Source: Liolophura sinensis (Eukaryota > Mollusca > Polyplacophora > Chitonida > Chitonidae). From it: a stretch of DNA of 64,000 bases. The notes under the pieces are model-generated. The model ran no database searches and was not told where the DNA came from. It worked only from the letters and a program-made list of their open reading frames with translations. The position numbers and the translations under genes are program-made. The stretch lies in NCBI RefSeq assembly GCF_032854445.1, contig NC_088296.1, positions 18,899,485-18,963,484 on the forward strand, given 5' to 3'. Shown one piece after another: positions 17,831 through 64,000 of this stretch (its first letter is position 1; each line of letters opens with the position of its first letter).

Positions 17831-20800
17831 TGTATACTTTATATAATATAAATATATATTCCTATCTTGTTTTACCTTTTTTATCAATGGCTTTTAACAT
17901 GTTACATCAGAATATTTGCGGTCTTGGCGCTCATGGAGAGGAATTCAAGTGTTATATTCAAAATCTTAAGCCCGCTCCTCATGTTATATGTCTTCAAGAA
18001 ACTTTTTTAAAGCCACATATGGATTTTACTTAACCTGGGTATTTTATAGGTAGAATGGATAGGAATACAGACGGGAGAGGGGGCCTGGCCATGTTTCTAA
18101 AAGACGGCCTATCCTTTTCAGAAGTAAAGTTACCTCCCTTTAAGAGTATTGCGGCACAATGTTTTAATATTGCTACGAGGTCTGGTGCACCCACAAGTGT
18201 GGTTAATATATACAATCCTTCTAGTCGTATTGATAGAAAAGATTTTGATACTCTTATGTCTTATATTAATAACACTTATATATTGTGTGGGGATTTTAAC
18301 GCTTACGGACCCTTATGGGGTAGCATTACAACGAATTTCAATGGAAGGGTAATGACTGCTCTAGTTAATGATTATGAAATGTGTGTTTTAAATGATGGGA
18401 CGGGCACTCGTGTAGATCCTCAATCTGGTAATCTGTCTCACTTAGACCTTGCTCTTTGCTCAGCAGATATAGGTCTGCCTTTTAATTGGTTCGTGGATAC
18501 CATAAGCCCTTGTCCTAGCGGCCATTTACCAGTTCTAGTCACCTGTAATATAGACCATCATGTGAATCCTGTAGGCCAGCCCCCCAGATGGTGTGTGAAA
18601 AGGGCAAACTGGGATGTATACAAAAAAGAATGTATGAGGTCTTTTTCTCAGGATGTGTATAATAATGATGTTGATATTTTTGCAAATAATGTACTTAATG
18701 CCATTGATGTGGCTGCACAAAAGTGTAGTCCAAAATCCTCAGGTAAGGTGTCTGGTAAAATACCTGTTCCTTGGTGGAACGACGATTGTTCTAATGCTAC
18801 AAAAAATCGGAAACGTTTAAAAAATCGTGCAAAACGCACTCGCCTATACCAAGATATTGTTTTATTTAAACGAGCTAAAGCTGTAGCACAGGGGGTGATT
18901 AAAACAGCTCAGAGAGACCACTGGCGACAATACTGTTCGAATCTATCTGAAAATACAAACACCAAAGAAGTCTGGAATAAAATAAACTCGATTAAAGGTA
19001 AAAGAAAATCAAATAACACCCCAACTATTGTTCATAATAATAGTAATTATGTTACTAATATTGACAAAGCCAATATTTTGGCAGACAGTTTCTCTTTCGT
19101 TTCCAGTTCAAACAATTATTCTCCTGAGTTTATATCCCATAAGGAAAATATTGAAGAAATGCATCCTTTCAATAATATTCTTTTTGATGACATGCCAATT
19201 AACAATGATTTTTCTTTACTAGAATTAAAGCAGGCCTTATCTTCATGTTCGGATTCGTCACCGGGTGAGGATACTATTACGTACTCCATGTTGTACAATT
19301 TGCCATATCACTGTATGACTATATTACTATTGCTCTACAATGCCGTTTGGTCTAGTATGAAACTCCCTGTTAAATGGAAAACGGCAATTGTTGTGCCCAT
19401 TGCTAAACCAGGTAAGGATCCCTCGTTCACATCTTCGTACAGGCCTATAGCCCTCACGTCCTGTCTCTGCAAGGTCATGGAGCGTATGATAAATTCTAGA
19501 TTGATGTGGTTATTGGAGAAACACAACATACTTAGTCCAGTACAGAGCGGTTTTAGAAACAAACGTTGTACTACTGACCATGTGGTTAATTTAGAAACCT
19601 CCATCAGACACTCTTTTAAATATAAAGATTATCTACTTGCCGTGTTTCTCGATATAGAAAAAGCGTACGATATGGTTTGGAGGACTGGGGTGTTAATTAA
19701 GCTACGTAATATTGGTATTGGTGGGAAAATGTTGGACTTTTTAAAAGATTTCCTGTCCGGACGTTTTATTAAAGTTCGAGTGGGACAGAGTTATTCTCGC
19801 ATGGTTCCGGTGGAGAATGGAGTTCCCCAGGGAAGTGTCTTGTCTCCCACTTTATTTAATATAGCCATAAATGACTTACCCAATGCCATATCCCCTAAAT
19901 TAAATTGCACGCTTTTCGCTGATGATAAATCCATGTGGTTTTGCTCTAGGTCCCTTGCCTCTTGTGTCAAGCATATTCAGCAAGGTCTAGATGATATTAT
20001 GAAATGGAGCAGGGACTGGGGGGTTTAAGTTTTCTTCTGTCAAAACAGAAGCTGTTGTGTTTACACGGCGCCATACTGGTAATGTTTGTCTGACCCTTAA
20101 TAATTCGACGATCAAAATCTCCTCTTCTTTTAAGTATCTGGGGGTTATATTTGATAATAGGCTTACTTGGGGTAGACATATTGACTATTTGATAGCAAGG
20201 TGTGATAAAGTTCTAAATTTAATGAGATGTGTATCGGGCAAATCTTGGGGGGCTGAGAAAAAATCATTACTACTGCTATATCGCTCTCTCATCCGTACCA
20301 AACTTGATTATTGTTGATTCTATGATTCTGCTTGCATTACGCTTAAAGAAAAATTAGATTCTGTTCAGTGCGCAGCGCTGCGGATATGTACAGGAGGCAT
20401 GCGCACCACACCACTTAACGTTCTACAGGTATTCTGTAACGAGTGGCCATTGTCTATCCGTCGGCGCCTGCGCACCTTCAAGTTCTTTTTCAGGCTCAAA
20501 TGTTCGGTTAATAATGCTTCGTCTCGTTTGCTCGAACCTTCCTTTTATGACAATTTGCATGACTTAAATAGTTATGCTGGGTTACCATTTAGTTTGTGAT
20601 CAAAGAACATATCTTCGTCTTTAGATTGTGATAATGTTGCTTTGCAGTCCTCCCGTGTTCCTGATTTCCCCACACGGAATCTAGAACCTCTCTATATTTC
20701 GACTACTCTGAACGATGATAGAAAAACATCTGATAATCCGAATGTTTCCTTACTATGTGCTACGGAATATATACATACAAACCTATCCCATTACTTGCAG

Positions 20801-24255: not shown

Positions 24256-24274
24256 GTGAAAAACCGAGCGTGTA

Positions 24275-27200
24275 ATGGCTGAAAGCAAGGAAAATCCTGA
24301 AGAGGTTCTCACATGTCCAATATGTGTGGAAACATTCCGGAAACCAGTAATGTTACTTTGTCAGCACAGTTTTTGCAGAGAGTGCATTGGTGTGTATGCT
24401 GACAAATCTAAACCTGGACAGACAGATGAGGTCTCCTGTAGCACGGGGAGTGAGGGTGTTCACCAGCTGATCTCATGCCCTGTATGTCGGACACCAACCA
24501 GTCTGGGGATAGAAGGTGTAGCTGGTCTGCCTCCCAACTTTCATCTGGCTGAAATAGTGGAGAGGTTCTCTTCTGCCGTGAAATTTGAGGATGACACCCC
24601 ATATTGTTCTCTGTGTGATGATGATAATCAGACTAAAGCTGTCAAGTTTTGTACCGATGGTTGTTTTCTGTATTGTAAAGACTGTCTGGCTTCTTGTCAT
24701 CCCATGAGGGGGGCTATGAAACGTCACCGGCTGATTTCGTCCTTGGAGTACCTCTCACAGGAAATCTCACAGAGACAAACCAGCGGCAGGGATGAACAAT
24801 CAAATCAGCAAGCGTCATGTGCAAGACATGGTGAGCCATTCTGCTTGTACTGTGTACCGTGCCGGATGGTGATCTGTGTGGGGTGTGTGGTTGACCACCC
24901 GGAACATGCTGTGCGGGATATACCATCTGCAGCTGAGAATCACAAGGTAATGCGAAAAAGATATTCTTATATCAGCCAACAACCAAAATGGATGTTCTGG
25001 GTCATTAACTGTAACGTTAATTCCCAGTGCAACGATTAATACGAAAAACTAAAAAATTGTGTAAGTTCAAAATTACTTTGAAATCATGCAAAGAGAAACA
25101 GTAAACAGTTTTCAATGATGTTAGAAAGACGCAAGGATGTTCTACGCGAATGACTTAAATCACAATCTAAATCGTGCACCACTCTAGTATATAGGTCTAT
25201 AGTCAATGTAAATATGTCATGATTTGGAACCAAATATTGACCCTTAGTTTGTAATTTATAGTGAAGAATGGGGCTTTTTGTCTTGTACTGTAGTGGCTTG
25301 AAAAGTGGATTTTGTAATGTAGCATCTTTTCCATTACAGCCAGGTGTGTTGAACAAGATTAGTGAACTGGAGAAAGTGCTACAAGAAACTAAAGAATCAC
25401 TGTCAGGAGTTTCAAGGCTGCACAATAAGATACAGGTTGGTATTTTTGATGACGTGGTCAACATGTGATTTATTGCATACTTGGTGACTCATTTTGCATA
25501 TGTAATTTATTGCTATCATTCACAAACTCAGGAAACATACAGCTGTTAATTATGTACCGACAACTCTAATACATCATTGCCGATCATACACTGTCATAAT
25601 ATCTATATTGTATATAAGTACTCCACATATGTGATGAGGACTGGCCCCGATAGCACAGTTGGTGGAGTGTCCGCTTAGATCCAGGGTCAAACCTGGGTGA
25701 AGTAACGCCTAAGACTTTAGAGGAAGAGGAAGTTGTAACTTACTCCCTTGGTGTTCAGCTTGAAGGGGATAATGCAACGACTGGTTGACCCGTATCAGTA
25801 TAATGGCTCAGGCGGGCCAGCTTACCTGCCTTCGGTAAGGCGTCTCACTGAAGCAACTAGATAAAAGAGCTGTGGAAATCTGTCTTGCAACAAGGAGGCA
25901 CATTACATGCACTCTAAGGATATCTTCATCGTCATATGACTGAAAAATTGTTTAGTACGACCTTAAACCCCAAGCACTCGCTCACCCATATGTGATGGTG
26001 CGACACCTGGGATTAATAGACGTCTCTTAATCCAAGGGTGACACTCTTGGTGTTTGAACCAAACCACTGGTGATCACAGCATAAGGGCGGCACCATCTCA
26101 CCCTGCACGGACCACCAGTTGTGATATTGAAGTTGAACCAACAACGTTTCTGAGTCGAAATATGAACCCCGATAGACTAAAGTGAAATCCCCTCCAGCCA
26201 GGAAGTACATTGTAGATACAGTTGTGTATAATCTCTTGAACACACCTGTAATGGTCAGGATGAGATAATAAACATTCTTTCTGTTTGTCAGGAAACTCAG
26301 GAACTTCACACTCAAGAGGTAGAAAGGGCTTATTGTGCAGCCTTGGAAGCCTTACAAGCCTGGAAACAACATTCCTTAGATGGCATAAAAATCCACTATT
26401 CACAGTGGAGTGTGGAGTGTAGTGTTGTACTTAAACATTTCCAGCTACAGGCCCAGGAAATGGAGAGGATGGTACAGGCTTCCAAGGATTTAGTAGCGTC
26501 AATGGACGTCGAGTTTTTACAGGTAAGTCAGTCATGCACAATCTCTAACATTGGTTCAGCTACCTCAACTCCAGTTAAATACTTTTCAACTAACCACACA
26601 GGACAACCTGTCAATAATTTTTCAGCTTCAGAGAACATATATAGTTTTCTTACATGTATGGGCTGTAGATATCTTGGCTCTGACCGCTCATTTGTAAACA
26701 AATGTGATATGTATGTTGTGTATGTACACAGAGGCATCTCATTTACCTTTGTCGCATTATTGAACCTGTGACCAGCCTCATACAGTGACACTAATGAACA
26801 GTGATGAGGTGTTCAAATCAATCTCATGTTGCCAGATCTACTTTTAGCTCCAGGGTTTAACTGCTTCACTTAGTTCAGTGGTTCTCTCCGGTCGCCCTCT
26901 ATTGTTCTATCCATAAACGTAACCGCTCTGCGATTAGACTAATAAACAACTCCACGATCCTATCTATGTAATATTAAAAAAGAGTACGTTGTTTGATGTT
27001 TTTTGAAATGACGTGTATATACGAATAGTAATAAAGTCCTTATCAGTGTTTGAAACAATAAATTAACCAATGTACAAACCGTATATAGACAACCATATCT
27101 CAGTTGATGACCCCCAGGCTCTGCCCAGTTTCCTTCAACCACAATGCTGAACGCCGTCATATAAGAGAAATATGTTGAGCATGACGTAAAACACCAATCA

Positions 27201-47049: not shown

Positions 47050-48040
47050 TCGATGTGGTTTCTCCTCATAGTTGTACCACGAACAATATGCCACAAAGAG
47101 GTTTCCCTTGTGAACAAACCAAGAAAAGTATGCCACATTCAGCGACGTTTCTTCTGTGACGATACCATGAACAATATCCCTCGTTACCAGACACAAAATC
47201 CGTCATTCTGGCAGGTTTTCGTGTGGGGTTACCAGACACAAAATCCGTCATTCTGGCAGGTTTAAGTGAGGGGAATTCTGTAATTCTGGGAGGATATTGT
47301 GAGGGGATAGCAGGAGCAATATGTCTCATTCTGGGAGATTTCCGTGAGGGAATGCCAATAACAATACGCGACATTCTGGCAGGTTTCCGTGAGTGGATAC
47401 TACGGAAAATATGCGTCATTCTAGTTGCTTTCCGTGAGGGGAAAACACGCACACTATGCGTCAATCTCGAAGGTTTCCATGAGGGGATACTACAAACAAT
47501 ATGCCTCAGTCTGGCAGGTTCCCGTGAGGTGATAACACGCATAATATGCGTCATTCTGGCTGGTTTCCGTGAGAGCATACCAGGAACAATATGCGTTATT
47601 CTGGCAGATTTCCGTGAAGGGTTACCACAAACAATATGCCTCATTTTGGCAGGTTCCCGTGAGGTGATAACATGCATAATATGGGTCATTCTGGCTGCTT
47701 TCCTTGACGGGATACCACAAACAATATGCGTCATTCTGGCTGCTTTCCTTGACGGGATACCACAAACAATATGCGTCATTCTGCCTGGTTTCCTTGACGG
47801 GATACCACAAACAATATGTGTCATTCTGGCTGGTTTCCGTGAGGTGATAACGCGCACAATATTCATCACCAGGAACACTCTGCCTCATTCTGGCAGATTT
47901 CCGTGAGGAGATACTAGGAACAATATGCGTCATTTTGACAGGTTTCCATGAGGTGATAACACGAACAATATGCGCGAATCTGACTGGTTTCCGCGATGGA
48001 ACACAATGAACAATATGTCATTTTGACAGGTTTCTAGGAA
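47050..48040 (+). repeat. 45-bp minisatellite, about 22 units
   Basis: Unit: ggtttccgtgaggggatacc / acaaacaatatgcgtcattc / tggca. A period of 45 keeps frames open on both strands, giving a 270-codon minus ORF (47066-47878, 15-residue period RKPARMTHIVCGIPS) and a 227-codon plus ORF (47223-47906). No start context, splice site or domain supports either as a gene. Confidence 0.92.
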
Positions 48041-48262
48041 CAAGATGGGTAAGGTCATTGTAAAAAAATCTTTGTTCTAAACGTGATTTGCATTTAAAAA
48101 CAGAAAATAGACGTTTGCCAAAGCTTACCCTTTGAAGGGGTTGGATCAGGTGTCGCAGCATCTGTAAGCGAGACAAACATGACGCTTAAGAAGATATTTA
48201 GAACTATACTCAGGTTCTGAGTAAAACTTTTCCTGTGTTAGAGTCCTTGATGGCAATATTTT

Positions 48263-48545
48263 CCCAATAAACATGAATGTACTGGTCCAATTCCGGGACT
48301 TAACCGGTTTGTTACGGCAGTACCGGCAGTTGGAGAGTTTAACAAGGCCAGTGCTGAACCATTTCCGGCTTGCCGCTATTTTGCCAGTGTTATGATCGCC
48401 ATATCTGGCCCAGCGCTGGCCCAGTTTAGTTTTACCGATATTCAAAGCATGTACTGACCCACCCTCGGGCCATTATTGGCTGGCCATTATTGAGCCATTA
48501 AATATCGCCGTAACTTGCCCGTTGCTGACCCAATGAAGCTTTGCC
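48263..48545. repeat. Left subterminal repeat region of the EnSpm-like element
   Basis: Motif instances: actggtccaatt (48281), ggccagtgctgaacc (about 48347), ctggcccagcgctggcccag (about 48405), actgacccacc (48453), gggccattattggctggcca (about 48467) and gctgacccaatg (about 48524). Irregular spacing, both orientations. Confidence 0.7.
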
Positions 48546-49660
48546 GTTATGGAGACTTTAAAAAATCCCGTCAAGTCCCACGAAGCGCAAAATTTTCTTT
48601 AGATAAGTTTGCACAGGCCTGGGTCCAAAGAAATAAAAAGAATAATATTGAGTTGTGTTTTGTTTTTTGTTTGTTTGTTTGTTTTGATTTTTTGTGTGTG
48701 TGTGTTTTTTTTCTGCTTTTTTTTTGTTTGTTTGTTTTTTTTAGGGGGGGGGGCTATTTATTTTTTATCAGCATACAGTGGCAGATTATTACAACTGATT
48801 TAAACTTGAGATATTTCAACATAACCAAATGTGAGTTTCTGTTTACATGGAACGTGAAAATAACTGTTTTCTGGAGCTAAAGCTGCATGTAGATATTATA
48901 AAAATATGACATATTTTGTTTTCGCACAACTCGAAACATTGGTCGGGGATTTCCGTGCCTTGTTGCACCTGACCGGAGTTGAGCGAAAACCTCCGAGCGA
49001 TGTTCCGATTTGACTCGCTCGTAAGCGCTCGGAAAAACGTTCGGAGTTTCCGTACCTTGACCGGAGTTAAGCGAAATCTCCGAAAGATGTAGGCTGACGA
49101 GTACTGTTGGGTTAACGAGCACAAAAGTACGAGACCTAAAATGTACGAGACGTTCTGTTCCGGCGCGCTCACCGGCGTGATACCGGGCCAATGCCGGACC
49201 GGAGGATAGCCATTCCTTAACGAACATTCTGTAACAGTGAATTCTGGGATCTGGCGCCAAGAAAGCTGTCGGCTGCTACCTAGAGCTACGGTAAGATTGT
49301 CTCGAACTTTTATCACGAAAACGTAAAAACTACAGACTGTTACAAAAACATAATGAGTGACGGCAATTCAGTACATTTCACTTTCACTTTCCATTTTCAA
49401 TTTCTAGATTATAGATACATACGAGTAGGCCAAACGAAGGCCCTGTCTACCTATATTATCAGTTTGGTACGGACAAGGATAAATTTACATGGGGACATTG
49501 TCAATCATTGGGAAGCACTGAAATTGTAAAGGCTAAAGCAGACATGCTGCATTCTTTACTTCGTTTTTGATGCCATGCTTATTTATTGACACAGATTGCA
49601 ATCAGTGAATCACTAAAATAGTGAGTACATGTGACTTATTAAACAAAGTCAGTTGACAAT

Positions 49661-51856
49661 ATGTCGTACTGGACTAAAAGAAGGCGGATACATGAAAATG
49701 TAAATAAATATCTGTCCAATATAAGCATTGCTCAAAATAGTTCAAGGTCATGTCAGCTTAAAGGCCAGCAAAGTAGACAGACAGCTTTGGAGCATGGTTT
49801 GGTGAAAGGTCAAGAATTTGTCTGTATTAACAATGATCAATCTAGTGGAAGTACCAGTAGTACTACTCCATCTGGCATTGGCAGTAGTAGCCGTACTACA
49901 GCCGATGTCTCTATCAATACTGCCACTTGTTCCGTTGACAATACCACTACCGACATTAATGCTAGCTCCAAACAAAATAATACATTCACAGACAAAGCAG
50001 AAACCAATGATGTATTATATGACATAATAGACAATGAAGGGACATTTCCTAACAGCATACCAACAATGGATGTAGACAGTGATAGATTTAATGATTGCGG
50101 TAGTACTGATTCAGAGGAAGAAAATGTTTTGTCGTCAGATTTGTTAGCTGCATGGGCAGTTGAAAATAACATCACTCACACAGCAGTTGGCAGGCTATTA
50201 GTCTTACTTAGAAACCATCATCCAAATTTACCTAAAGACCCCAGGACTCTTTTGGATACTGGACATGTTGTGGGGATAAAGCAGATATGTGGGGGTTCTT
50301 ACTATCATTTTGGACTCCAAGGTTGTGTAATTCGAAGGATAGAATTGAACAAAAATATGGAATGTATCAAAGTCATAGATGTTCAGGTGAATACGGATGG
50401 ACTCCCCATTTTCAAAAGTAGTAACACTCAGCTGTGGCCTATTTTGGGAATGATACAAAATGAAGCAAAATGCCAGCCGTTTGTCATTGGGTTGTTTGTT
50501 GGACAAGAAAAACCAAAGGATCCTTCTGAATTTTTGAAAGATTTTATCACAGAGTATACAAAGCTAAAACTAGAGGGGATACAATACAAAGGTAGGCATT
50601 ACCAGATTAACATAACATCCTTCATCTGTGATGCACCAGCACGTGCCTTTATCAAACAAATCAAGTGTCACGCAGGTTATTCCGCATGTGAAAAATGTAC
50701 GCAAAAAGGCGTGTATAATGGGAAAATGACATTTCCTGAAACTCATGCAACGCTGCGAACTGATGAATCATTTGAAAAGCAGGAAGATAAGAACCATCAC
50801 ACTGGAACAAGTCCGCTTTGCAATTTGTTCTCTATGGTGTCACAGTTTCCAATTGACTATATGCACTTAGTGTGCCTCGGTGTAATGCGTCGTATCCTTG
50901 TGTTATTGATAAGGGGTCCACTTACAATTCGCTTAGGGCCTCAGACAAAATTACGCATTTCAGCTGCCTTGCTTCACATGTGTAAATTTATACCTAAGGA
51001 GTTTGCACGAAAACCCCGTTCACTGTCAGAGATAGACCGATGGAAGGCAACAGAATTCCGCATGTTTCTTTTGTACACAGGAACTGTTGTTTTAAAGGAC
51101 AGTATCGCTGATGAGTTGTACAAAAACTTTCTTCTGCTCTCAGTCGGAATTACCATACTTATAAGTCCGTCTCTCTGCTATCAGTTAGTGGGCTATGCAC
51201 ATGAGCTTCTAGTAAGCTTTGTCCAACACTTTGCGCACCTTTACGGTGCTGACCAGGTCGTGTACAATGTCCATAATCTGGTCCACCTTGCTCAAGAGGT
51301 GAAAATACATGGTCCTCTTGACACAATATCAGCATTTCCTTTTGAAAACCACCTGAAAACTCTGAAGCGGCTTGTGCGGAAGAAAAGCTTGCCATTACAG
51401 CAGCTTGTCGCAAGAATGAAAGAGATCTCTCAGATATCTCCCTCAGCTGCTACATTGCCCACAGCTGCTGATGGTGGACTGAAAAAGCAACATTTTCTTG
51501 GTCCAATTCCACAGGGATATAAATACCAGAACTGTGTCCAATACACAGAAGTTGAACTGGACCATTTCTGTGTTGTAACAGAAACCGGCAACAATTGTGT
51601 TGGGGTAGGGTCAAAGGTTTGCCTCATCAAAAATATTTTGTATTGTGGTGGAGATGTACTGGTGGTTTATCAGTCATTCAGATCATGTAGACCATTTTTC
51701 TCTTACCCTCTCAATTCAAGTGAAATCAACATCCACATGGTCACCGACCTCTGTGACAAACTCCATGTTGCTCCCATCCAGGAAGTGGTTCGGAAATATG
51801 TGTTGTTGCCATATAAAACTGTACATGTCGCAATTCCTCTTATTCACAGCTGTTAG
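49661..51856 (+). CDS. Tnp2/CACTA-like transposase, intact single exon
   Basis: The 731-residue open frame starts at ATG 49661. It has a Ser/Thr-rich N-terminal third, then a catalytic-type region: VNTDGLPIFKSSNTQLWPIL (D of DG), SFICDAPARAFI (second D), HAGYSACEKC (zinc-binding type), FPIDYMHLVCLGVMRR, RWKATEFRMFLLYTG and ISAFPFENHLK (candidate E). This order parallels Tnp2 transposases of plant En/Spm elements (DG…WP, D-PA, GY-C-C, D-MH) and a widespread animal family annotated as uncharacterised or transposase-domain proteins. It would bind and cut element ends in the nucleus. A possible 5'-UTR intron runs from a donor at 49291 to an acceptor at 49594. No stop or frameshift is seen. Superfamily assignment is from motif recall. 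Confidence 0.8.
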   Translation: MSYWTKRRRIHENVNKYLSNISIAQNSSRSCQLKGQQSRQTALEHGLVKGQEFVCINNDQSSGSTSSTTPSGIGSSSRTTADVSINTATCSVDNTTTDINASSKQNNTFTDKAETNDVLYDIIDNEGTFPNSIPTMDVDSDRFNDCGSTDSEEENVLSSDLLAAWAVENNITHTAVGRLLVLLRNHHPNLPKDPRTLLDTGHVVGIKQICGGSYYHFGLQGCVIRRIELNKNMECIKVIDVQVNTDGLPIFKSSNTQLWPILGMIQNEAKCQPFVIGLFVGQEKPKDPSEFLKDFITEYTKLKLEGIQYKGRHYQINITSFICDAPARAFIKQIKCHAGYSACEKCTQKGVYNGKMTFPETHATLRTDESFEKQEDKNHHTGTSPLCNLFSMVSQFPIDYMHLVCLGVMRRILVLLIRGPLTIRLGPQTKLRISAALLHMCKFIPKEFARKPRSLSEIDRWKATEFRMFLLYTGTVVLKDSIADELYKNFLLLSVGITILISPSLCYQLVGYAHELLVSFVQHFAHLYGADQVVYNVHNLVHLAQEVKIHGPLDTISAFPFENHLKTLKRLVRKKSLPLQQLVARMKEISQISPSAATLPTAADGGLKKQHFLGPIPQGYKYQNCVQYTEVELDHFCVVTETGNNCVGVGSKVCLIKNILYCGGDVLVVYQSFRSCRPFFSYPLNSSEINIHMVTDLCDKLHVAPIQEVVRKYVLLPYKTVHVAIPLIHSC

Positions 51857-52379
51857 GTACAGAAAAGTGATATACACGTGACATTATGCAGGGTTGGAGT
51901 CTTATACATGTAGAATCAGTAGCAATAGTCTTTTTTGTGTGTTTTTTAAATTTAATCCAAGAGCGATAATTTGATCAAATCTTTTTGTTGAGAAAGCCCC
52001 AAATGCCTGCCTTACCATAACTTTCTATTTCCCAGACATTGCCAATATATATGTATGTATGTATATTGATTTAATGATACTGTGGTTCAAGTTTCTAATA
52101 TTTGTGAAAACATTAGAGGACCAACTAGAGGGATTGTCATTGAAAATGGAAATGTACTTCAGTTATTAGACAATAAATATCTACATACTGTACATACATG
52201 TATTTAAACCTTTCCAAGCTTGAACTAGCCTAATCATGACACTGTTTAATTATTGTTTCTAAAAGTCTAGTGAAGGACTATAAAAGAATTGAAGAACAAT
52301 GTTGTATGTGACATACACCCCAAATGTAATTGTGATTTGTGTAAATGTACTGAATTTGTGAATCCTTTCTTATTTACAG
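51857..52379. other. Spacer between transposase and DUF4806 gene
   Basis: AT-rich, no ORF of note. It ends with the acceptor (cttatttacag, 52379) of the first DUF4806 coding exon, so that gene needs an upstream noncoding exon. The region therefore may be transposase 3' UTR and intron of the second gene at once. Confidence 0.6.
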
Positions 52380-52385
52380 ACATAC

Positions 52386-55300
52386 ATGTCATTGACAATG
52401 TATGCCGTCGTAGTTTTTGTGGAGACGGATGAAGTAGAGCTTGTTGCTTCCAACTGGTTACAGTCTCAGACAAAAACTTTTTGGCCACCGTATCGCAATA
52501 TGTCTAACGTAACTAAAGCTGTAAAAGACAGAGTAGCAGCTGACAAAACTTGGCCAAGTTACAGCATTCGCATCCTGTCTGCTTGTGGTGAGTATCATGT
52601 AAAACGTTTCATTATTAATTTTAACTCATTATATTACATGTCAGACATACAGTTCAGAAAATGGTGATTCTAAGGTTCTAAATAATGCTGCATATACTTC
52701 AAAGGGAAAAACTAACCATTTTAAGACGTGTAAACCACATATTAATTAGTCTCTTGTTACCTGCAGGCTGCAGAACTGTACATTCATGGGGCAGTTTTGA
52801 CCTTCAAACCATCAGAAAATAGCTCCAATGTATTCCTTTTTGATATCAAAAAATGAAAAAAACCTCTGTGATGGTGAATCATTACAATCATGTTCGCCGA
52901 CAACACACTCAGATGAATGACTTGAGGCAGGTTTTCCATGCATTGTTTTACAGGTCGTGCAGAAAGTGTCATGCAAAAAATTCATCTCAGGTGCTGCACC
53001 GATAGCCTCTAACGATAGCAATTAAGCATCTTATATTGGTGCAGCAATGTTTCACTGGTATCACAAGTGTGCAACAAAGCAATGGTTTACTTCTAGTGCT
53101 CTAGTTTCCTCAATGTATGAAGTTGGTGGCCGTTGTGCAAATACATGTAAGGTAATATTGAATACTTAAATGATGTTAAAACAAAACAAAATGAACGTAC
53201 AGCGGAAAGAGAATAACCAAAGCAGTGACGTGTGTGAGACATTGGGATATTTGGCTCACACAGCCGAATGAAAATGTCTCCCTGTCACTTACCTCAGACA
53301 GGGTTTTATTCTAACTGTTCATGTGATTGCAAATATACTACCACACATGCCCCTTAGCAGCGCGGTTTGAACAGAATTAGGTAAAAATAAATACTTGTTT
53401 AAGTGTTGACAACTAAGAAATTGAGAAAACTCGGTTCGCTGTATTGTTTACACATAACAATGGACAATATGAAAATGAAATGCATAGGTGCCAGGCCTTG
53501 GGGAACAAATGCCCCCCACAGCAAAGTCCCAGAATATGCTGGGATAAACCACAATTGGTCAGTCAGGTTTAAACCACAATTGATCTATCATCTTATCGCC
53601 TAATTCAGATATTCTTGCCTGTGGGCCGTGGCGCAGGGAAGCCAGTGATCAACATGTTGGGATGCAAATTCAAACTTTTCGAGAACAATGATGCTAGTAG
53701 CGCTGTGAAAACAGAGCCGCATTTGCTGGAGAACTAGCGCATTCCATCACTGTATAATACAGGAGGGAAGTTGTCGGTGACTTGCCAAAGGTCAACTGGT
53801 GGTCAACTGGTGGTTTTTCCCTGGTTTTTTTCCACCCAACCATAAATACTGACCTTTTGTCATATAAGGGAAATACTCATGAGTACGGTGTAATAAAAAT
53901 GGACTGTAATCAGTCAGTCAGTCAAATGTTCTGCATTTTCCATGCAGATAGCTATGAGGATGGCAGAAGAAAGCTTCGAATGGCCGAGGAAACCTCAGAC
54001 ATACAAACAGATGATGAAGTTGGAATGGGGAAGGGTGCAAGAAGGTACATAGAGAGAACAGCATTAAAACAACACTATTACAACAATAAGTCTCCTGTAA
54101 AGAATAAAGAGAAACAAATCAAAACTTAAAACACTATCGCCCACAGCCATGGAGTAGTGGCTAGCGCTCTTGGCTGCTGAAGTGCTGGTCAAGACATCCC
54201 GGGATCGATTTCCCATAGTGTCAGGGAATGTTTCTCTCATTCCAGGCCGTTTGGCTGATTGGTTATGAGGCTATCTTTTGCAAGGTGGACGACAACGCTT
54301 GTAAGTACCAAGAAAAATCAGGTGATATTGGTATTAATGGACTGCAATTCGTTTGAGACCTCCTGCTGCCCACCTTTGATTATGTGGAGAAGTTGTCAGT
54401 GACTTGCCAGTGGTCGGTGGTTTACCCTGGTTTCTTCCAGGGGTTTCTTCCACCCGAGGATGCCCAGAAATACTGACTCGCCATCATATAACAGAAATAC
54501 TGAAAGGAACGATCTCAGCCTTGCTTCACAGAGCAAATTAAGATCGCGCTGCTTCCAAACTCGCATTTTTTTTCTGACAAGAGCACTATCATAATTTGAT
54601 AGTGAACAATAATGTACACATGTTATAATGCACCGATTGCCTTACTGTACAGGCGCAAAGAGCGAACACTATACAGCGACACAGACGATGATGAAGCTGT
54701 TGCCGGACCAGTTAAACGCAAACATCTCCCCCCAGCCCCGCCAGTCCCACCTTTTCCAAGCCTCCATGTTCCTGCTGGTATACAACTGGACAATCGACAA
54801 GGTACCGTGTCCTATCTTACACAAATTTAACATGTAAGGCTTGTTTTTGGAGTTCAAGGTCAAATGCCACATTTTTAATATTCGTTAAAACAACCATAAA
54901 CAGCATCAACTGGAATATGTGTCATCAGGGGCAAGTATGAATAAAGCAGCGTACTGATGACGTCGCGACGTTCTGAAAAGCAGGGGCGACAAGCAAGGGA
55001 GATTTGTTTACATTCAAGTGCCACAAGGCTGTGGTCGATAGATATGAGTCGGAATTCGAGAATACACGCGTGAAGTACACAAAATAGTATCAAAAATGCA
55101 AAAAGACAATCATTGTGCAGGTAATGTGATTAGTCAACAGCATAAATACCGGTACATCACGCACTGACACATCGCACTGAAAGGACCGATGATGTAACTA
55201 AATCAACAGCCTGATCTTGAAAGTTGTGTGACAACAAATAACACTAGCTGTAGACAGATTTCATTAAATCTAAACAGCGTGTACATTAAATATAGTTATA

Positions 55301-58300
55301 ATGCTCTTTTTTCAGCCACAGACAGAGAAATACTAAAGGCTATCAGTGCTGTCCAGGTATCTTTGGATGAAGTCCGCAAAGAGGTTTTGTCCCAAAGACA
55401 GCTGCTGAACATGATGATCAGCAAAGAGGCATCAAGTGGCACCACAGATGTGATGGATACCTTTCCAATAAAGTCCATGGAAGAGCTGGATGGAATGGAA
55501 AACAAAATTGAAGATAAAGAAATTGCTAAATCACTGGTAAGTTTGTTGATGTCTGTCTGTTCATCTATCTGTAAGCAAGCTTAAGCTGACAACTCATCTT
55601 CTCGTACTTCAAGATGCTGCTTCAATTATTTCTGAAGTTTTTGCCCTATTATGATAGATATTAATGATAGTAAATTCTTGTCCGATTTTGGACAGTATGT
55701 GCCTATACCTGCAAGAGAGCTTGTCAACGCATCTGCTCCTAAACTCATCACAGGATTCTCTTGTAATGTGGTAAACAAAACGGATGCCATGCTGGGATGG
55801 TCATCTCGTCTTGGGTGTTACATGGCTGCAGATATTTCCGGAGTTGAAACTTCGTGGACATGATGGATTTCTTATTTGGATCCAGCTGCTACAGTGTTTT
55901 CCAAATGGTATTGTCGTGGTCAAAACCAATTGAGTTACCTCAATGAAACTTGGTGGGCTGATAATTTTTTTGTACTGGTATGGCAATTTTATGTCACTAT
56001 TGTGCCTTATACTTTATTCTATGTGTTTTTTTCTACCTTCCTATGGCTGCCGGTAGATGTAGAGGGCGGGGGACATGGGTGGGAGGTCTTATGGTACATA
56101 ATAATCTATGGAGGAGGGAGTACATAGATAAATATGGTCCACAGCGGCTGATTTGGATGGGGAGTGGGGGGGGGAAGCATGGTACATTAGGCCTACTATT
56201 ATCAGCGGCGGGGGATTTAGGGGAGAGGCTTGGTACATAATAATGATTAACGGAAGAGGATTGGAAGGGCAATGGCAGTACATAAAGATGGTCTATTATG
56301 GAAAATGGACAGGGGGTTGGGTGTGGCAGTATGTTAAGGTGCCGTTAAGAAAGAAAATAAGGTAAGGCAGCTTGAGTAACATCACAGAATTTGCAAGATG
56401 ATATTTCAGGAACATGAGATGTTTCACCTTAAGGATTGATGAATAGAATTAGTATGGGGAGTTAGAGTGATAATTTCAATTTCAATTTATTATTCAAGCA
56501 CAATTTATACTCACATATAAACATGGCTCAGATAAGCATTAGGAGGGATGAATTCACTTAGTATTACTTGAGCCCTCGGGTCCAGGGGTTTTTTGTTAGC
56601 GCAGCTTCATGTTCAAAGAAGTAGCACTTGACTCCCACCCAACCCATCACCACCCTAGCCAACTTTTGGCAAACAACTGTATTGCTTTACAGCTTGAAAA
56701 TTTTCACTTAGCATCACCTTCAGGATGTAAAAAAAACAATATAGGTAACCATCAATGCTATTTTGGCTTTACAACACAAGGTTATTATACCAGTATGTAA
56801 TATTATTGTAGGTCAATCAACTCAGCCTCATCGGGGGTTCTAATCTTAAGGAGGCGACCAGACGGGTGATGTCTCAAACCATATCCCATAATGTTGCTCT
56901 GAACCTTAATTGGGCAGGGAGGAAGGGCTGGAAAGGTCAGCAGACTGAACCGAAGAGAGCATTTGGTGGTCTGCGCCTATGCGCTGCAATGAAAAGTAAG
57001 CATTTTACTGAGCATTTGTTTTTGATATTAATGTATCCTGGACAAAGTTTATGTGCCTGCATTTTGGTCCTTGGCAATTTGCTTCCCATCTATCGCATTG
57101 GTGATTGGTGGGTTAAATATTATAGTTTTTCATTCTCTCTTTTTTTTTCATGACCTAATTGGAGTTGAAGAATGTTCATTTTGTCTGTTTTACCTCAGTC
57201 TTGTATTTTGAGGGGAAGAAAACTAAAGAACCACAAGTATCCTAGCTAAAAGGGCTTTCGTTCCTCATTCTATAGTTGGTTGTACTTTTGGTAGCATGGT
57301 AAACTGCTAATTATGCTAATTACTGGGAGCTGCCAACATTGAACTGAACTATGTTCTGTCGTGGAATAAGTTAAAAAAATTCTTTATGTACTATCCCCTT
57401 CAAATATTGTTGTTGCTTTTTGTTACATTTAATAGAGATGGGAGATCGTAACAGTGCTTTTAGAAATATAAGTTGAACTGTCCTGATCATAAAAAGTGCT
57501 TGAAACAATCCCTACCTACAAAGAAGAAGAGTCTAGGAGATCAAAAATGGCAGCTCCAAGTAACTACCATAATTGGCAGTTGATTGTGGTGTTGCAAGTC
57601 GTAATTTCAAAGTGCGTGCAACTATACAGGTGGAATGAAAGGCCTTTAAGCTAGGATAATTGTGGTTCTTTAGTTTTCTTACACTTAATGAAATAAAATC
57701 CTGTCAGGTGATTCAATCGCTTAAATAATGCACTATCTTACAGAATTGACCTTTTGTTTGACAGGCAAAGCGGCAGGCATGAACGCTCAAACAACTGGTC
57801 CATACTGATTGTCCATTATGTAGTTGATTAGAGGCCCTGAAGGAGACTTTTATTTCTATTTCCCATAATAAATCCTGTCAGGGTCATCAGGTCGCCTTGA
57901 TGAATTGACCAGTTGTTTTTGGGCTCCAGCCTTCGGCTCAGGGGTTTAGCCAGAAATCTGAAGCAAGGTGTCCAATTTGCCCGTTTAGAGGTCATTTTTC
58001 TTGAGAAGGGTGTCCAAAATTGAAATTTTCCTATCTCACTCATGTTAAAACTGTTGAAAATAGCCCGATAAAATGGGACCAGTTTCAATTTTGCCTATCC
58101 AGTTGGAACGTTGCTTGGCTTCTCCCTTAATTCCGTTTGATAATCCATTATCTAGGCTGTTAGTTGACACAAATAACACAACAGTACCTGTAATAGTATG
58201 CAGGGCGCAAATTATAATATTAGAATTTCCACTCATCAACATTGCTATTATAGCAAGTTAACAACTCCGAGAAAAGACATACAATTCATTTTGACTCTAT

Positions 58301-60224
58301 ATTTAGGTACCTTGCTACATTTCGCAAATTATACAAAGGGTATTGCAATTCCGAATTGAACACAGAGTATTCTGCCAATTCTTTTGTTATGCCACAAAGA
58401 CCTTAAAAGCATAGTAAGGGTTGATAACAAGTTAGTCTCAAATGAAAAATGGTTCACAAAAATATTTTTATTTATTGTCTGCGATTTTTTCTTACAAAGT
58501 TATGAGGATTTGAAAATTTGACTTTATGGAAGCCTATTGAGAACCGAAGAACCAGTGACGTCACAGGAATTTGTTAATTCCGCAGCAATTGTTTATTCCG
58601 GCATCAAACTTTCATGATTTAATACGCAAGCCAATATCACCCAAATCATTTTAATCGAAGACGTAGTATCCATCCATCATGTATGATCTACAGAAATGAA
58701 AGCAGAATTATGACATCACTGGACCTTTTTATGGCCGAAACAGGCCTCCATTGAATCTAAAATTTCAAACGCTTATAACCTGGTGAGGAAAAATCGTAGA
58801 AAAATAATAAAAATATTTTTACCAACAATTTTTTATTGCCTTTCATATGACGATAAACTTCGGTGAGGCCTTATTTTCTTTTCTTTTAAATGGGCTATGC
58901 CGGACATTTTCAGCAAAAAGTGGAAGTGGTAGTCGCAAATCAATCCAATCCTATGCCATTATTAAAGAACAGCCCAAAATATTGCCCTTTACCATAAATC
59001 AGGCTCATTGATGCACGCCTTAGTGTTTAGAACAGCAGATAAAGTTCAATAAAACCGTTAATTCGGGTCGAATTAGCAATTTTATCAACTTAATCAACGG
59101 GCTAAAACGTGCATGGATGAGGCTGATTTTTGGTGGGAAGTATTATTTTGCCTAGTTCTTTACCAATAACATAAGATTTGATTGATTTGTGACTATCAAT
59201 TTTTTTTTGCTGAAAATATCCGGTATAGCCCCTTTAAGTAATTTCTTGGTTATTGGATTGGTCAATTACTGCTGGTTACAAAACTCGTTACATACTATAA
59301 AGGGATTTAGTTGAACTTGTCATTTTATAAGATTGGAAAAACAGATACATTAAAAGAGCGGCATATACAAAACCTTAATAGTGTAACCGACGTAGGAAAG
59401 ATGGCTTAATGTCACTTGTGCATTGTACTGTGACGTCATTTACACTGGTGTTTGTCTTGATGCTGTGTTGTGTCGTCGGTATAAGGTACGCTATTGTGAG
59501 AAAACAATAAACAGTATTTTATTCCGACAAGAGTAGCAGAATGGGATCGGCAAACAGGCGAATGAATAATGTTCATGAAAAATTATGACCAGTTCTAATC
59601 AACCGTATTACAGAATCCGACCTCTTGACACTGTCCTTCCAAAATTTGCCTTGAAAGTGCCATTTTTATCAGAAGTAGCTATAAATGGGTAAAGTTAGGT
59701 TACCCAACCGTCTGAGGTGCCCCTTTAGTTTAAGTATGCTTGCCCCTCAGCATCTTGAGTAAGGCCTATGTGATATTTTTTGAGTGTGAATGCATACAAA
59801 TTATTCACATGATCAGTAGTACAAGCTGGCCTCATAAAGACATCCCGTGATCTCAAACCATCTCGAATTGGATAATTTGAAAGCCAGTTGTTTTGTTTCT
59901 TTAAATGGGCTTATTCTCAGAAACTTTCAGTTTGCCTAGGATGATTCTATACACGTTGACGTGTAGTTATTTCGATACAGTTGTATTCAAAGAAACTGGC
60001 AGTTAATTTGCCTTGTGAAATGTGTGTTCACAGAAGCGATGCTGAAGAACGTTGCCTACAAAACAACAGAAGACCAGGTCGAGAGAGAAATGATGATATG
60101 GCTTCGCAACGCCTGCGACAGGCATGGGGGCAGGAAGAGGCGCGCTGAGTCTCAAGCCACTGTGTCAGTAGTGACTGTTTCGGAAAACAGCAAAATCGCT
60201 GAAATCACTGAAAATGAACTTTGA
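52386..60224 (+). CDS. DUF4806-type protein, partner gene of the transposase
   Basis: Six coding exons join in phase: 52386-52587, 53948-54044, 54653-54801, 55316-55536, 56812-56995 and 60034-60224. Total 1044 nt, 347 residues, all introns GT-AG. Exon 1 gives a globular N-terminus (VVVFVETDEVELVASNWLQS, FWPPYRN, WPSYSIRIL). Exons 2-3 give RRKLRMAEETSDIQTDDE and an acidic/Pro-rich linker. Exons 4-6 give the DUF4806-type C-terminus: a coiled-coil stretch, TFPIKSMEELDGMENKI, LSLIGGSNLKEATRRVM, LNLNWAGRKGWKG and VEREMMIWLRNACDR. Proteins with this layout are common in insects, cnidarians and molluscs; their function is not established to my knowledge. Its place inside the element suggests an accessory transposition protein. 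A host origin remains possible. Confidence 0.8.
53225..53385 (+). repeat. Dispersed repeat R4, copy 3 (DUF4806 intron 1)
   Basis: tccctgtcacttacctcaga, cagggttttattctaactgt, tcatgtgattgcaaatatac. Diverged 3' half. Confidence 0.65.
53635..53930 (+). mobile_element. SINE family D, copy 1 (DUF4806 intron 1)
   Basis: Decayed tRNA-like head (gtggcgcagggaagccagtg), body gttgtcggtgacttgccaaa, and tail tcatataagggaaatactca / tgagtacggtgtaataaaaa. The tail is clearly related to the family A tail, while the head and body differ. Confidence 0.65.
54145..54510 (+). mobile_element. SINE family D, copy 2 (DUF4806 intron 2)
   Basis: tRNA-like head (ccatggagtagtggctagcg … cccgggatcgatttccc) with recognisable A- and B-box-like segments. 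Body gaagttgtcagtgacttgcc and tail ccatcatataacagaaatac shared with copy 1. Confidence 0.7.
55537..56811. repeat. DUF4806 intron 4, with a degenerate G-rich tandem repeat
   Basis: At about 56055-56345 a unit of roughly 65-75 bases recurs about four times (gggaggtcttatggtacata, ggggggaagcatggtacatt, ggggagaggcttggtacata, gggcaatggcagtacataaa). A 70-codon ORF at 55651-55863 has no recognised domain and is not needed by the splice model. Confidence 0.55.
57215..57692. mobile_element. Long-inverted-repeat element 1 (MITE/foldback) in DUF4806 intron 5
   Basis: The left arm (gaagaaaactaaagaaccac, tatcctagctaaaagggctt, ggtaaactgctaattatg, tactgggagctgcca) matches the inverse of the right arm (ggcagctccaagtaactacc, aaggcctttaagctaggata, gtggttctttagttttctta). 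Arms about 140-150 bases, spacer about 180. Non-coding. Confidence 0.8.
58428..58868. mobile_element. Long-inverted-repeat element 2 in DUF4806 intron 5
   Basis: Left arm ctcaaatgaaaaatggttca, aaaatatttttatttattgt, ctgcgatttttt, aagcctattg. Right arm, in inverse, gtcatatgaaaggcaata, aaaatatttttattattttt, ctacgattttt, aggcctgttt. Arms about 130-150 bases, diverged. Confidence 0.7.
58890..59233. mobile_element. TTAA-flanked MITE with ~130-bp inverted repeats (piggyBac-type target)
   Basis: Left end atgggctatgccggacattt, and right end in inverse aggggctataccggatattt, continuing through cagcaaaaa, cgcaaatcaatc / cacaaatcaatc, taaagaac and atgcacg. TTAA lies immediately outside both ends (58886-58889, 59234-59237). 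Length 344, no ORF. TTAA target use is typical of piggyBac-type elements. Confidence 0.75.
59238..60033. other. End of DUF4806 intron 5, nothing further recognised
   Basis: Ends in the acceptor tgtgtgttcacag (60033) of the last coding exon. No ORF or repeat seen. Confidence 0.55.
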
Positions 60225-60660
60225 TCGGTCCGAGCTATTTTCCTGTGCTTGATTTAAGAGTCAACTCTTTTTGTGCCATTGGTGCAGGTGGGATCAATTA
60301 AACTATTTGAAACTTACATATACATGTTGGTTGAGTTCCTTACTTTATAAATGTAAATAAGTTCTGAAACTGTTTTGGTGATTCACTGGTCTCCCACCAG
60401 TTTGTATTCTTCATCAAACCTTTTGCCAAGAGCTGCTATGGTAACATTTTCAACCTTAAAGCCAAAGGTTTTGACAGTCGTACTGTTTGGCATATATGTT
60501 GCTTTCTTGTCGACCAATAGAAAAAGGTTAAAAAAATATCAAGGTAGGGTTACTGCAAATATCAATTTAACAAATGTCGCTGAATGATTACTTTTATTCC
60601 TAGGAAAAGCAATGGATTTGATTGGGGATAAGCATTCTGGGTCTTCACTATATCTGTTTA

Positions 60661-60970
60661 GGACCAGTTATGAGCAAAGAGTACATTGGCCCAATTCTAA
60701 ATGTACTGTACTGGCCCTATTCTTACAAAGATTGGCGCTGTATTGGCCTAATAACTTTATGCAACTCTGGGCCAATCAATGTATTACTACACTGGTCCAA
60801 TGCATGTTTAAAAATGGATACATAATGGTGAAATTCCCAAACCAGTACTGGACCAGTGCCGCGCCACTGTGCAAAACGTGTATTGGTCCGATAATTGTTT
60901 CCCCAAATGGCCCAATTGAATACGTGTCAGCGTGCCAATATTGGTCCAATGCTTTTATGTTTCTTGGGTT
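60661..60970. repeat. Right subterminal repeat region of the EnSpm-like element
   Basis: Motif instances: acattggcccaattc (about 60683), actggccct (60710), tattggccta (60741), ctgggccaatc (about 60767), actggtccaat (60791, identical to 48281), accagtactggaccagtgcc (60841), attggtccga, atggcccaatt (about 60907) and attggtccaat (60940). Overlapping ORFs here are by-products. Confidence 0.7.
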
Positions 60971-60975
60971 GTAGG

Positions 60976-63427: not shown

Positions 63428-63565
63428 CTGGACCCAGTATTTCAGCAGCATGCCACGGTTATCAGGCACGCACTCACTGTCGATCCCCCGCTCCCCCCCC
63501 CCCCCCCAGTGTCCCTCAATACGATGATCTGTTAAGCCGAGTCATAGACATCCTCTGAAGAAAAC

Positions 63566-63778
63566 CTTCTCCAATAGCTGCCTGAAGTCCGGGTGCTTTC
63601 TTATCAAATTGTCGTCAATCATGGCAAGTTGCCCGCCACGATTTCCACAACGTCTTTTGGCCTCATACCATGCCAGCAAGTAGTTCAGCTCGTAACATTT
63701 GTTGTCGTATTCGCACGGAATACGACAAGGATGCGGACACATTTCCTTGGTTGTTACACAAGGGTTGGTCATGATGTA
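63566..63778 (-). CDS. Exon of a putative C-type lectin-like protein (partial gene)
   Basis: The minus-strand exon follows an acceptor (ttatttgcag, just above 63778) and ends at a plausible though weak donor (gag aag|gttttc). It is 71 codons, phase 0 at both ends. It reads a Cys-rich lead (CVTTKEMCPHPCRIPCEYDN), then CYELNYLLAWYEAKRRCGNR and GGQLAMID. The C-Y…W-x-x-A…C…GG-x-L-A-x-I pattern is typical of the first half of a C-type lectin fold. The rest of the domain should lie further on the minus strand (below 63566) but was not found before the SINE at 63.4 kb. Other exons may lie outside the window. Carbohydrate binding cannot be judged. Confidence 0.6.
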
Positions 63779-64000
63779 CTGCAAATAATGTATATTTATT
63801 AAACAGGCCATCTTAGACATAACTCTTAGAGACATAAATAAATTAGTAAAAGTATAATTATGTAAAGTTTTATTGGTCTTTCTTTTCAAGTATTTTTACA
63901 GATTCTTTCAAAGTACAAGATTTGTGGGTATGCCTTGTTTTCTGCAATGTTTATTTAATGAATATTTTAATGAATGATTGATTGAGATTGGCTGTATTTT

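Follow-up and report, generated by a model that had tools for sequence, protein, structure and literature searches.

The described systems closest to the element reported here are the TRC transposons of animals (SmTRC1 of Schistosoma and its relatives in Tribolium and Aedes), which have CCC termini, 2-bp target-site duplications (TSDs), a transposase with the conserved motifs I and A and a spacing of about 80 residues between two aspartates, and more than one protein product (PMC1636069). In plant En/Spm elements, which end in CACTA and are flanked by 3-bp TSDs, the transposase (TnpD) is accompanied by a second protein (TnpA) and repeated motifs lie near both ends; TNPA recognises subterminal repeats and is needed together with TNPD for transposition (PMC2613891), and a single unit gives rise to the transcripts by splicing (PMC1636069). 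For SmTRC-PrA, the second protein of SmTRC1, the DNA-binding job of TNPA was proposed in PMC1636069. Here we describe a cut-and-paste DNA transposon, 12.7 kb in length and recently mobile, from the mollusc Liolophura sinensis (Polyplacophora), located at 48263–60968 of a 64,000-nucleotide stretch of contig NC_088296.1 (assembly GCF_032854445.1, positions 18,899,485 to 18,963,484 of the forward strand; hereafter the window). Its sequence features place the element in the animal TRC branch of the CACTA superfamily, which is a transposon kind already known, and its second gene, predicted to encode a DUF4806 protein, is the subject of most of what follows.

The genome searched comprised 609 Mb in 632 contigs, and ten copies were examined, namely the one in the window and nine of the 13 other loci whose transposase shows at least 83% identity in the main match (the remaining loci lie at C2:24.76, C2:24.83, C10:1.86 and C4:7.53 Mb). 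The first-pass annotation of the window had placed a candidate transposon at 48251..60975, with terminal inverted repeats (TIRs) at 48263–48291 and 60940–60969, and had named beforehand, as a check, further copies with the same ends and TSDs. Such copies exist: both ends are present in eight of the ten, and all eight are flanked by perfect 2-bp TSDs (TT, AA, GG, TA, AG, AG, GT and GA, seven different dinucleotides). The copies bear out a transposon at this place, with its ends corrected to 48263 and 60968, and the imperfect 29-bp TIRs are likewise real (23/29 bases match), the right one ending at 60968. The termini begin with CCCAA at the left end of all ten copies and at the right end of eight; of the two copies without a right end, C10a enters an assembly gap and C4 has none in the fetched stretch. 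Of 20,000 pairs of 60-bp sequences drawn at random from the window's first 47 kb, 8 scored equally high, but the bounds of the element are independent of this pairing score, being fixed by the ends that the copies share. The previously noted identity of ACTGGTCCAAT at 48281 and 60791 was confirmed.

Except for C4, which is 92–96% identical and carries inserted blocks, the examined copies are 99.3–99.7% identical to the window copy over long aligned pieces, and the family therefore moved recently. An empty site was found for the C3a copy, which reads AG-element-AG where three paralogous sequences (L028, L029 and L023) have a single AG and no element; a fourth and more distant paralogue (L030) agrees except for small gaps. 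The target of this insertion was itself a transposon of a diverged, related family (family D, see below). Searching the genome with the TIR pattern (up to three mismatches) gave 13 left ends, against 0 for the reversed-pattern control, and thus a low copy number. The suggestion that two adjacent host genes merely lie among chance repeats, with no transposon involved, was rejected on the exact common ends, the TSDs and the empty site, in copies found on several contigs, and has next to no probability. Both genes are intact in three copies (window, C3b and C10b). The copies vary by blocks such as the 350 bp at 59446–59795 of the window, which are missing from C10b and C8.

Table 1. Coordinates in the window of the transposon, its ends and its genes.
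Feature	Start	End	Strand	Remarks
Complete transposon	48263	60968	+	12,706 bp; start common to 10/10 copies examined, end to 8/10
Target-site duplication TT, left copy	48261	48262	.	copy comparison
Target-site duplication TT, right copy	60969	60970	.	copy comparison
Left terminal inverted repeat, CCCAATAAACAT...	48263	48291	+	23/29 matches to the right end
Right terminal inverted repeat, read inward, CCCAAGAAACAT...	60940	60968	-	final 30 bases the same in all 8 copies that have this end
Left subterminal region	48263	48592	.	GGNCC cores 22, 145, 156, 205 from the end
Right subterminal region	60639	60968	.	GGNCC cores 22, 56, 80, 115, 171, 196, 252, 277, 304 from the end
TRC/CACTA-type transposase gene	49661	51856	+	731 aa; single open frame (49661–51853), stop codon 51854–51856
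Predicted splice acceptor, just 5' of the DUF4806 start codon	52378	52379	+	acceptor-like AG, same place in families B and C
DUF4806 gene, coding exon 1	52386	52587	+	predicted
DUF4806 gene, coding exon 2	53948	54044	+	predicted
DUF4806 gene, coding exon 3	54653	54801	+	predicted
DUF4806 gene, coding exon 4, DUF4806 domain begins	55316	55536	+	predicted, Pfam
DUF4806 gene, coding exon 5, DUF4806 domain core	56812	56995	+	predicted, Pfam
DUF4806 gene, coding exon 6 with stop	60034	60224	+	predicted

The residues and motifs characteristic of a DDE transposase of this superfamily were located in the first gene, with D246, D324, a CxxC at 343, an HxxxH at 538 and E562, as well as motif I (IDVQVNTDGLPIFKSSNTQLWPI) at 239 and motif A (IDYMHLVCLG, of the metazoan/fungal type) at 398. 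In shuffled proteins, motif I occurred in 0 and motif A in 5 of 20,000 cases. Motif I, motif A, CxxC, HxxxH and the glutamate are common to the transposases of the window family (family A) and of a diverged family B, in which the two aspartates are 78 and 79 residues apart, respectively, next to the criterion of about 80. Both also have C(2)C and H(3-4)H between the second D and the last E, the criterion given for CMC(T) transposases in PMC12730594. Intact transposase frames were found in seven genomic copies, including that of the window, at 99–100% identity. Among Pfam profiles, DUF4218 matched family A with E = 1.1e-6 (above the cut-off) and family B with E = 1.7e-5 (below it). A match of the 731-aa protein to the Tnp2 profile, another check proposed in advance, was not obtained, as neither the A nor the B transposase matched Transposase_21 (PF02992) at E ≤ 1, a point in which the element differs from the animal TRCs of PMC1636069. 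We kept it in the TRC branch despite this, because the residue motifs that PMC1636069 gives for the domain are present, together with the CCC start of the TIRs, the 2-bp TSD, motif I, the metazoan/fungal motif A and the aspartate spacing. The earlier label "EnSpm/CACTA-like" holds for the superfamily but not for the plant type, as membership in plant-type En/Spm is ruled out by termini that read CCCAA rather than CACTA and by a TSD of 2 rather than 3 bp; the unmatched Tnp2 profile is a further difference. The transposase would cut at the CCC termini and insert with 2-bp duplications. PDB sequence searches with the transposase and with the DUF4806 protein gave nothing useful, and scans of viral and bacterial/archaeal contigs with the transposase alignment returned pattern matches but no relative.

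Termini were also assigned in the more distant families. Read inward, those of family A are CCCAATAAACATGAATG on the left (10 copies) and CCCAAGAAACATAAAAG on the right (8 copies); the right terminus of family B is CCCAGCCAGCATTCAGC (two copies), that of family C is CCCAGCAAACATTGCCG, and the left terminus of family D, in its C8 copy, is CCCAGTAAACATTACCA, placed where this copy ceases to match the others. The end of family C comes from one copy, with no second-copy confirmation, and was chosen by a scan for the TIR of family A and picked for its CCCAGCAAACATT. The ends assigned to families B, C and D all start with CCCA; no left end could be located for family B and no right end for family D. 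The TIR of the Hydra element Spongebob (EnSpm-4N1_HM), CCCAGCCAACATTGAC, resembles the ends of all four families, the likeness being greatest for family B (CCCAGCCAGCATTC) and family C (CCCAGCAAACATTG), and Spongebob also has a 2-bp TSD and was placed in the TRC branch (PMC4298943). It differs in its 5.8-kb consensus and in a transposase that its authors found hard to identify exactly, and the available text of PMC4298943 does not mention a second gene. The terminus of an Aedes TRC is CCCAGTCAAC (PMC1636069). SmTRC1 is smaller, with about 4.5 kb and a 54-bp TIR (PMC1636069) in comparison with 12,706 bp and 29 bp here.

The second gene is predicted to have six coding exons (52386 to 60224) with GT/AG boundaries and to encode 347 aa; with the 731-aa open frame this upholds the first-pass description of two intact genes on the same strand. 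Its product matched Pfam DUF4806 (PF16064) with E = 9.6e-10 and 39.1 bits (curated cut-off 25), and the profile was matched at E ≤ 10 by the domain stretches of three of the four lineages. In other copies (C4 excluded) the DUF4806 frame is open in C3b, C10b and C13, open up to the gap in C10a, and open with one changed acceptor in C3a, while exon 3 is 9 bp longer (10 bp in C11) than in the window copy in all eight others. The last intron contains an imperfect inverted repeat (58886–59237, about 72%), possibly a nested small element. An acceptor-like AG precedes the start codon of the DUF4806 gene in families A, B and C, and in family B the DUF4806 match begins 48 bp past the end of the transposase match, in the same stop-to-stop frame. 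From these two observations the DUF4806 mRNA is expected to begin inside the transposase gene or 5' of it and to be spliced past it; the acceptors here suggest a shared transcription unit, as in plant En/Spm.

That the DUF4806 protein is a component of the element and not an unrelated neighbour, as had been supposed from the window, was examined across the genome, where there were at least 71 matches to the transposase of family A, at least 69 to that of family B, and at least 117 exon matches to the DUF4806 protein. The matches listed clustered into 43 loci with a transposase and 33 with a DUF4806 gene, of which latter 31 came from the search and two, of family B, were added by hand; the counts of pairs given here refer to these loci. 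A DUF4806 gene lies 3' of the transposase, on the same strand and within 4.5 kb, at 24/43 transposase loci, and at 22 of the 24 whose matches span at least 1 kb; conversely, 24/33 DUF4806 loci are paired with a transposase in the same strand and order, and the two genes are thus found together elsewhere. Family A or near relatives account for 14/24 pairs, so that few independent lineages are represented. Among these, the transposases of family B (C11:17.20 Mb and C2:5.24 Mb) are 39–44%, that of family C (C6:82.47 Mb) 58–74% by stretch, and those of family D (C8:54.41 Mb, C3:18.07 and 18.18 Mb) about 42% identical to family A, and the exon order of the DUF4806 gene was kept wherever the whole gene was read (B, C, and D on C8). 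Comparison of families A and C gave pN 0.26 and pS 0.79 for the DUF4806 gene (319 codons, alignable stretches only, pS saturated), and pN 0.20 and pS 0.64 for the transposase (512 codons), which indicates that purifying selection acts on both genes. By the pairing in the same order and strand across lineages, together with this selection, the DUF4806 gene is recognised as a true transposon component, and the two genes as travelling in one unit.

CACTA superfamily transposons are known to capture genes, and a gene taken from the host and carried along by a single transposon family would also explain a DUF4806 gene beside a transposase, as well as the nine of 33 DUF4806 loci that have no listed transposase upstream. 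A late capture, however, would mark one family only, whereas the same gene occurs in the same order and strand, with collinear exons, in the transposase lineages B, C and D, and is under purifying selection between A and C. Late capture was rejected because the pair is conserved across lineages, and we consider a captured passenger very improbable.

Several loci merit separate description. At C3:18088883-18168433, a short transposase fragment recurs ten times, mostly about 8.74 kb apart, in a tandem array whose units include a piece of an old TRC element, and at C3:16385383-16405949 matches to DUF4806 exon 6 (mostly also exon 5) recur every 3.9–5.5 kb, an apparent tandem amplification of TRC pieces. 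DUF4806 exons with no listed transposase nearby were seen at C2:2485438-2486435, C3:6984386-6984523 and C6:24009336-24009925; the pair on C2, whose matches contain no stop, may represent either a solo remnant or a gene adopted by the host. In the family C copy L025 (C6:82475775-82479395), mariner/Tc1-like transposase sequence was recognised by eye in the 5' part, and the TRC transposase is decayed; its DUF4806 exon matches have no internal stop.

The role of the second protein was approached through the element ends. As the first-pass annotation had stated, motifs cluster on both sides: 9 of the element's 14 TGGNCCA sites are found no further than 330 bp from an end, and the site count observed at either end was reached by 0/5,000 single-base shuffles of that end. 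The sites are palindromic around GGNCC, mostly TGGNCCA in families A, C and D and GGGCCC in family B, and their distances from the right end are 33, 56, 80, 115, 127, 171 and 196 in family C and 22, 32, 56, 80, 114, 145, 176 and 322 in family B (adjacent sites merged; for family A see Table 1). Counting sites within 1 bp of each other at the right ends, with the TIR excluded, and comparing with 20,000 random placements, five coincidences were found between A and C (0/20,000) and four between B and C (5/20,000). The right end of family B has 26% identity with A or C outside the shared cores, so that in B the register of sites persists although the sequence has diverged.

DUF4806 is stated to be a BEN subtype in the available text of PMC11075544, and Insv, a BEN protein, multimerises and binds CCAATTGG in dimeric form (PMC6317261). 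The sites of the BEN proteins Insensitive and Elba contain CCAAT, as do many subterminal sites of family A, but their half-sites are arranged as CCA-AT-TGG and those here as TGG-N-CCA; moreover, Insensitive and Elba are host regulators, not transposon proteins, and no sequence similarity between them and DUF4806 was found here. From the clustering of sites, their right-end register, the stated BEN kinship and the dimeric binding of Insv, we infer that the DUF4806 protein has a TnpA-like end-binding role. The likeness to plant En/Spm would then comprise a transposase with a second protein and repeated motifs near both ends, with the difference that the second protein is TnpA in the plants and here a DUF4806 protein without a TnpA/TNP1 match in Pfam. 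A difference from SmTRC1 is that its PrA had no relative in other TRCs by the BLAST searches of its authors (PMC1636069), whereas the DUF4806 partner is conserved across lineages.

Taken as a whole, the element is probably an autonomous or recently autonomous TRC transposon whose DUF4806 protein acts at the ends in the manner of TnpA. The DUF4806 protein would bind, as a dimer or multimer, the palindromic TGGNCCA-type sites within about 300 bp of both ends, pair the two ends and recruit the transposase, as TnpA does in plants, and the 731-aa DDE transposase would make the cuts at the CCC termini. Each family would have its own flavour of site, with several right-end sites keeping their register, and, to judge from the positions of the splice acceptors, alternative splicing of transcripts from a single upstream promoter may yield both mRNAs, as in En/Spm. 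It is also conceivable, if rather unlikely, that the TRC transposon is real and its DUF4806 protein serves transcriptional control or repression, a chromatin boundary, or the evasion of silencing instead of end assembly: Drosophila BEN proteins act in insulation and repression (PMC6317261, PMC6911014), and sites are present also at the left end, the expected location of the promoter. The presence of sites at both ends, their greater density at the right, and the distances kept there by some of them across families fit end assembly better, and the two functions can coexist, as they do for plant TNPA (PMC2613891).

A number of observations weigh against a TnpA-like component. No transposase is listed in the 4.5 kb upstream of nine of the 33 DUF4806 loci, and 19/43 transposase loci lack a listed DUF4806 gene, ten of the latter being copies of one short tandem-array fragment. 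Of nine copies checked, three (C11, C12 and C8) have a broken DUF4806 gene and a fourth has the changed acceptor, and no acceptor is evident 5' of the DUF4806 start in family D. Regarding the sites, the right-end coincidences between A and B are weak (three, reached in 174/20,000 random placements and 2/285 circular shifts), the right ends of A and C are partly alignable (49% outside the shared cores), so that plain homology accounts for part of their agreement, and the family C right end ranked second in the scan with the TIR of family A (15/24, against 16/24 elsewhere). Three comparisons involving left ends yielded no common site beyond the TIR, and the one core common to the left ends of A and D, at 22, lies inside the TIR. 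Finally, the relation of DUF4806 to BEN comes from one passage of PMC11075544 that cites another paper, and with the DUF4806 protein neither the PDB sequence searches gave a BEN chain nor Pfam a BEN match.

Around the element, the window contains a 45-bp minisatellite (47185–48034) about 230 bp upstream of it, and open frames that by eye resemble a LINE endonuclease/reverse transcriptase (18034–20028, a long frame), a RING/B-box protein (24260–25039) and a C-type-lectin-like exon (63542–63895).

No link between DUF4806 and transposons was found in the literature naming DUF4806, as far as its text was available, with Repbase and subscription journals outside the search. Two Hydra genomes contain 69 and 54 DUF4806 genes according to a table in PMC7642931, which also lists many transposase domains and, in the text available, sets DUF4806 beside them without comment. 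A more far-reaching and doubtful idea is that DUF4806 is the missing TnpA of animal CACTA/TRC elements and that the BEN family descended, or was repeatedly recruited, from transposon end-binders, its site preferences going back to the recognition of transposon ends. For animal TRCs, the element offers a partner gene that has a nameable domain and is kept in several diverged lineages, together with young intact copies and, at either end, candidate binding sites. Some of the DUF4806 genes annotated in animals may belong to transposons and not be host regulators, and an origin is hereby offered, from the examination of one genome, for at least part of the DUF4806 family, which opens a route to ask about the origin of BEN-type regulators.

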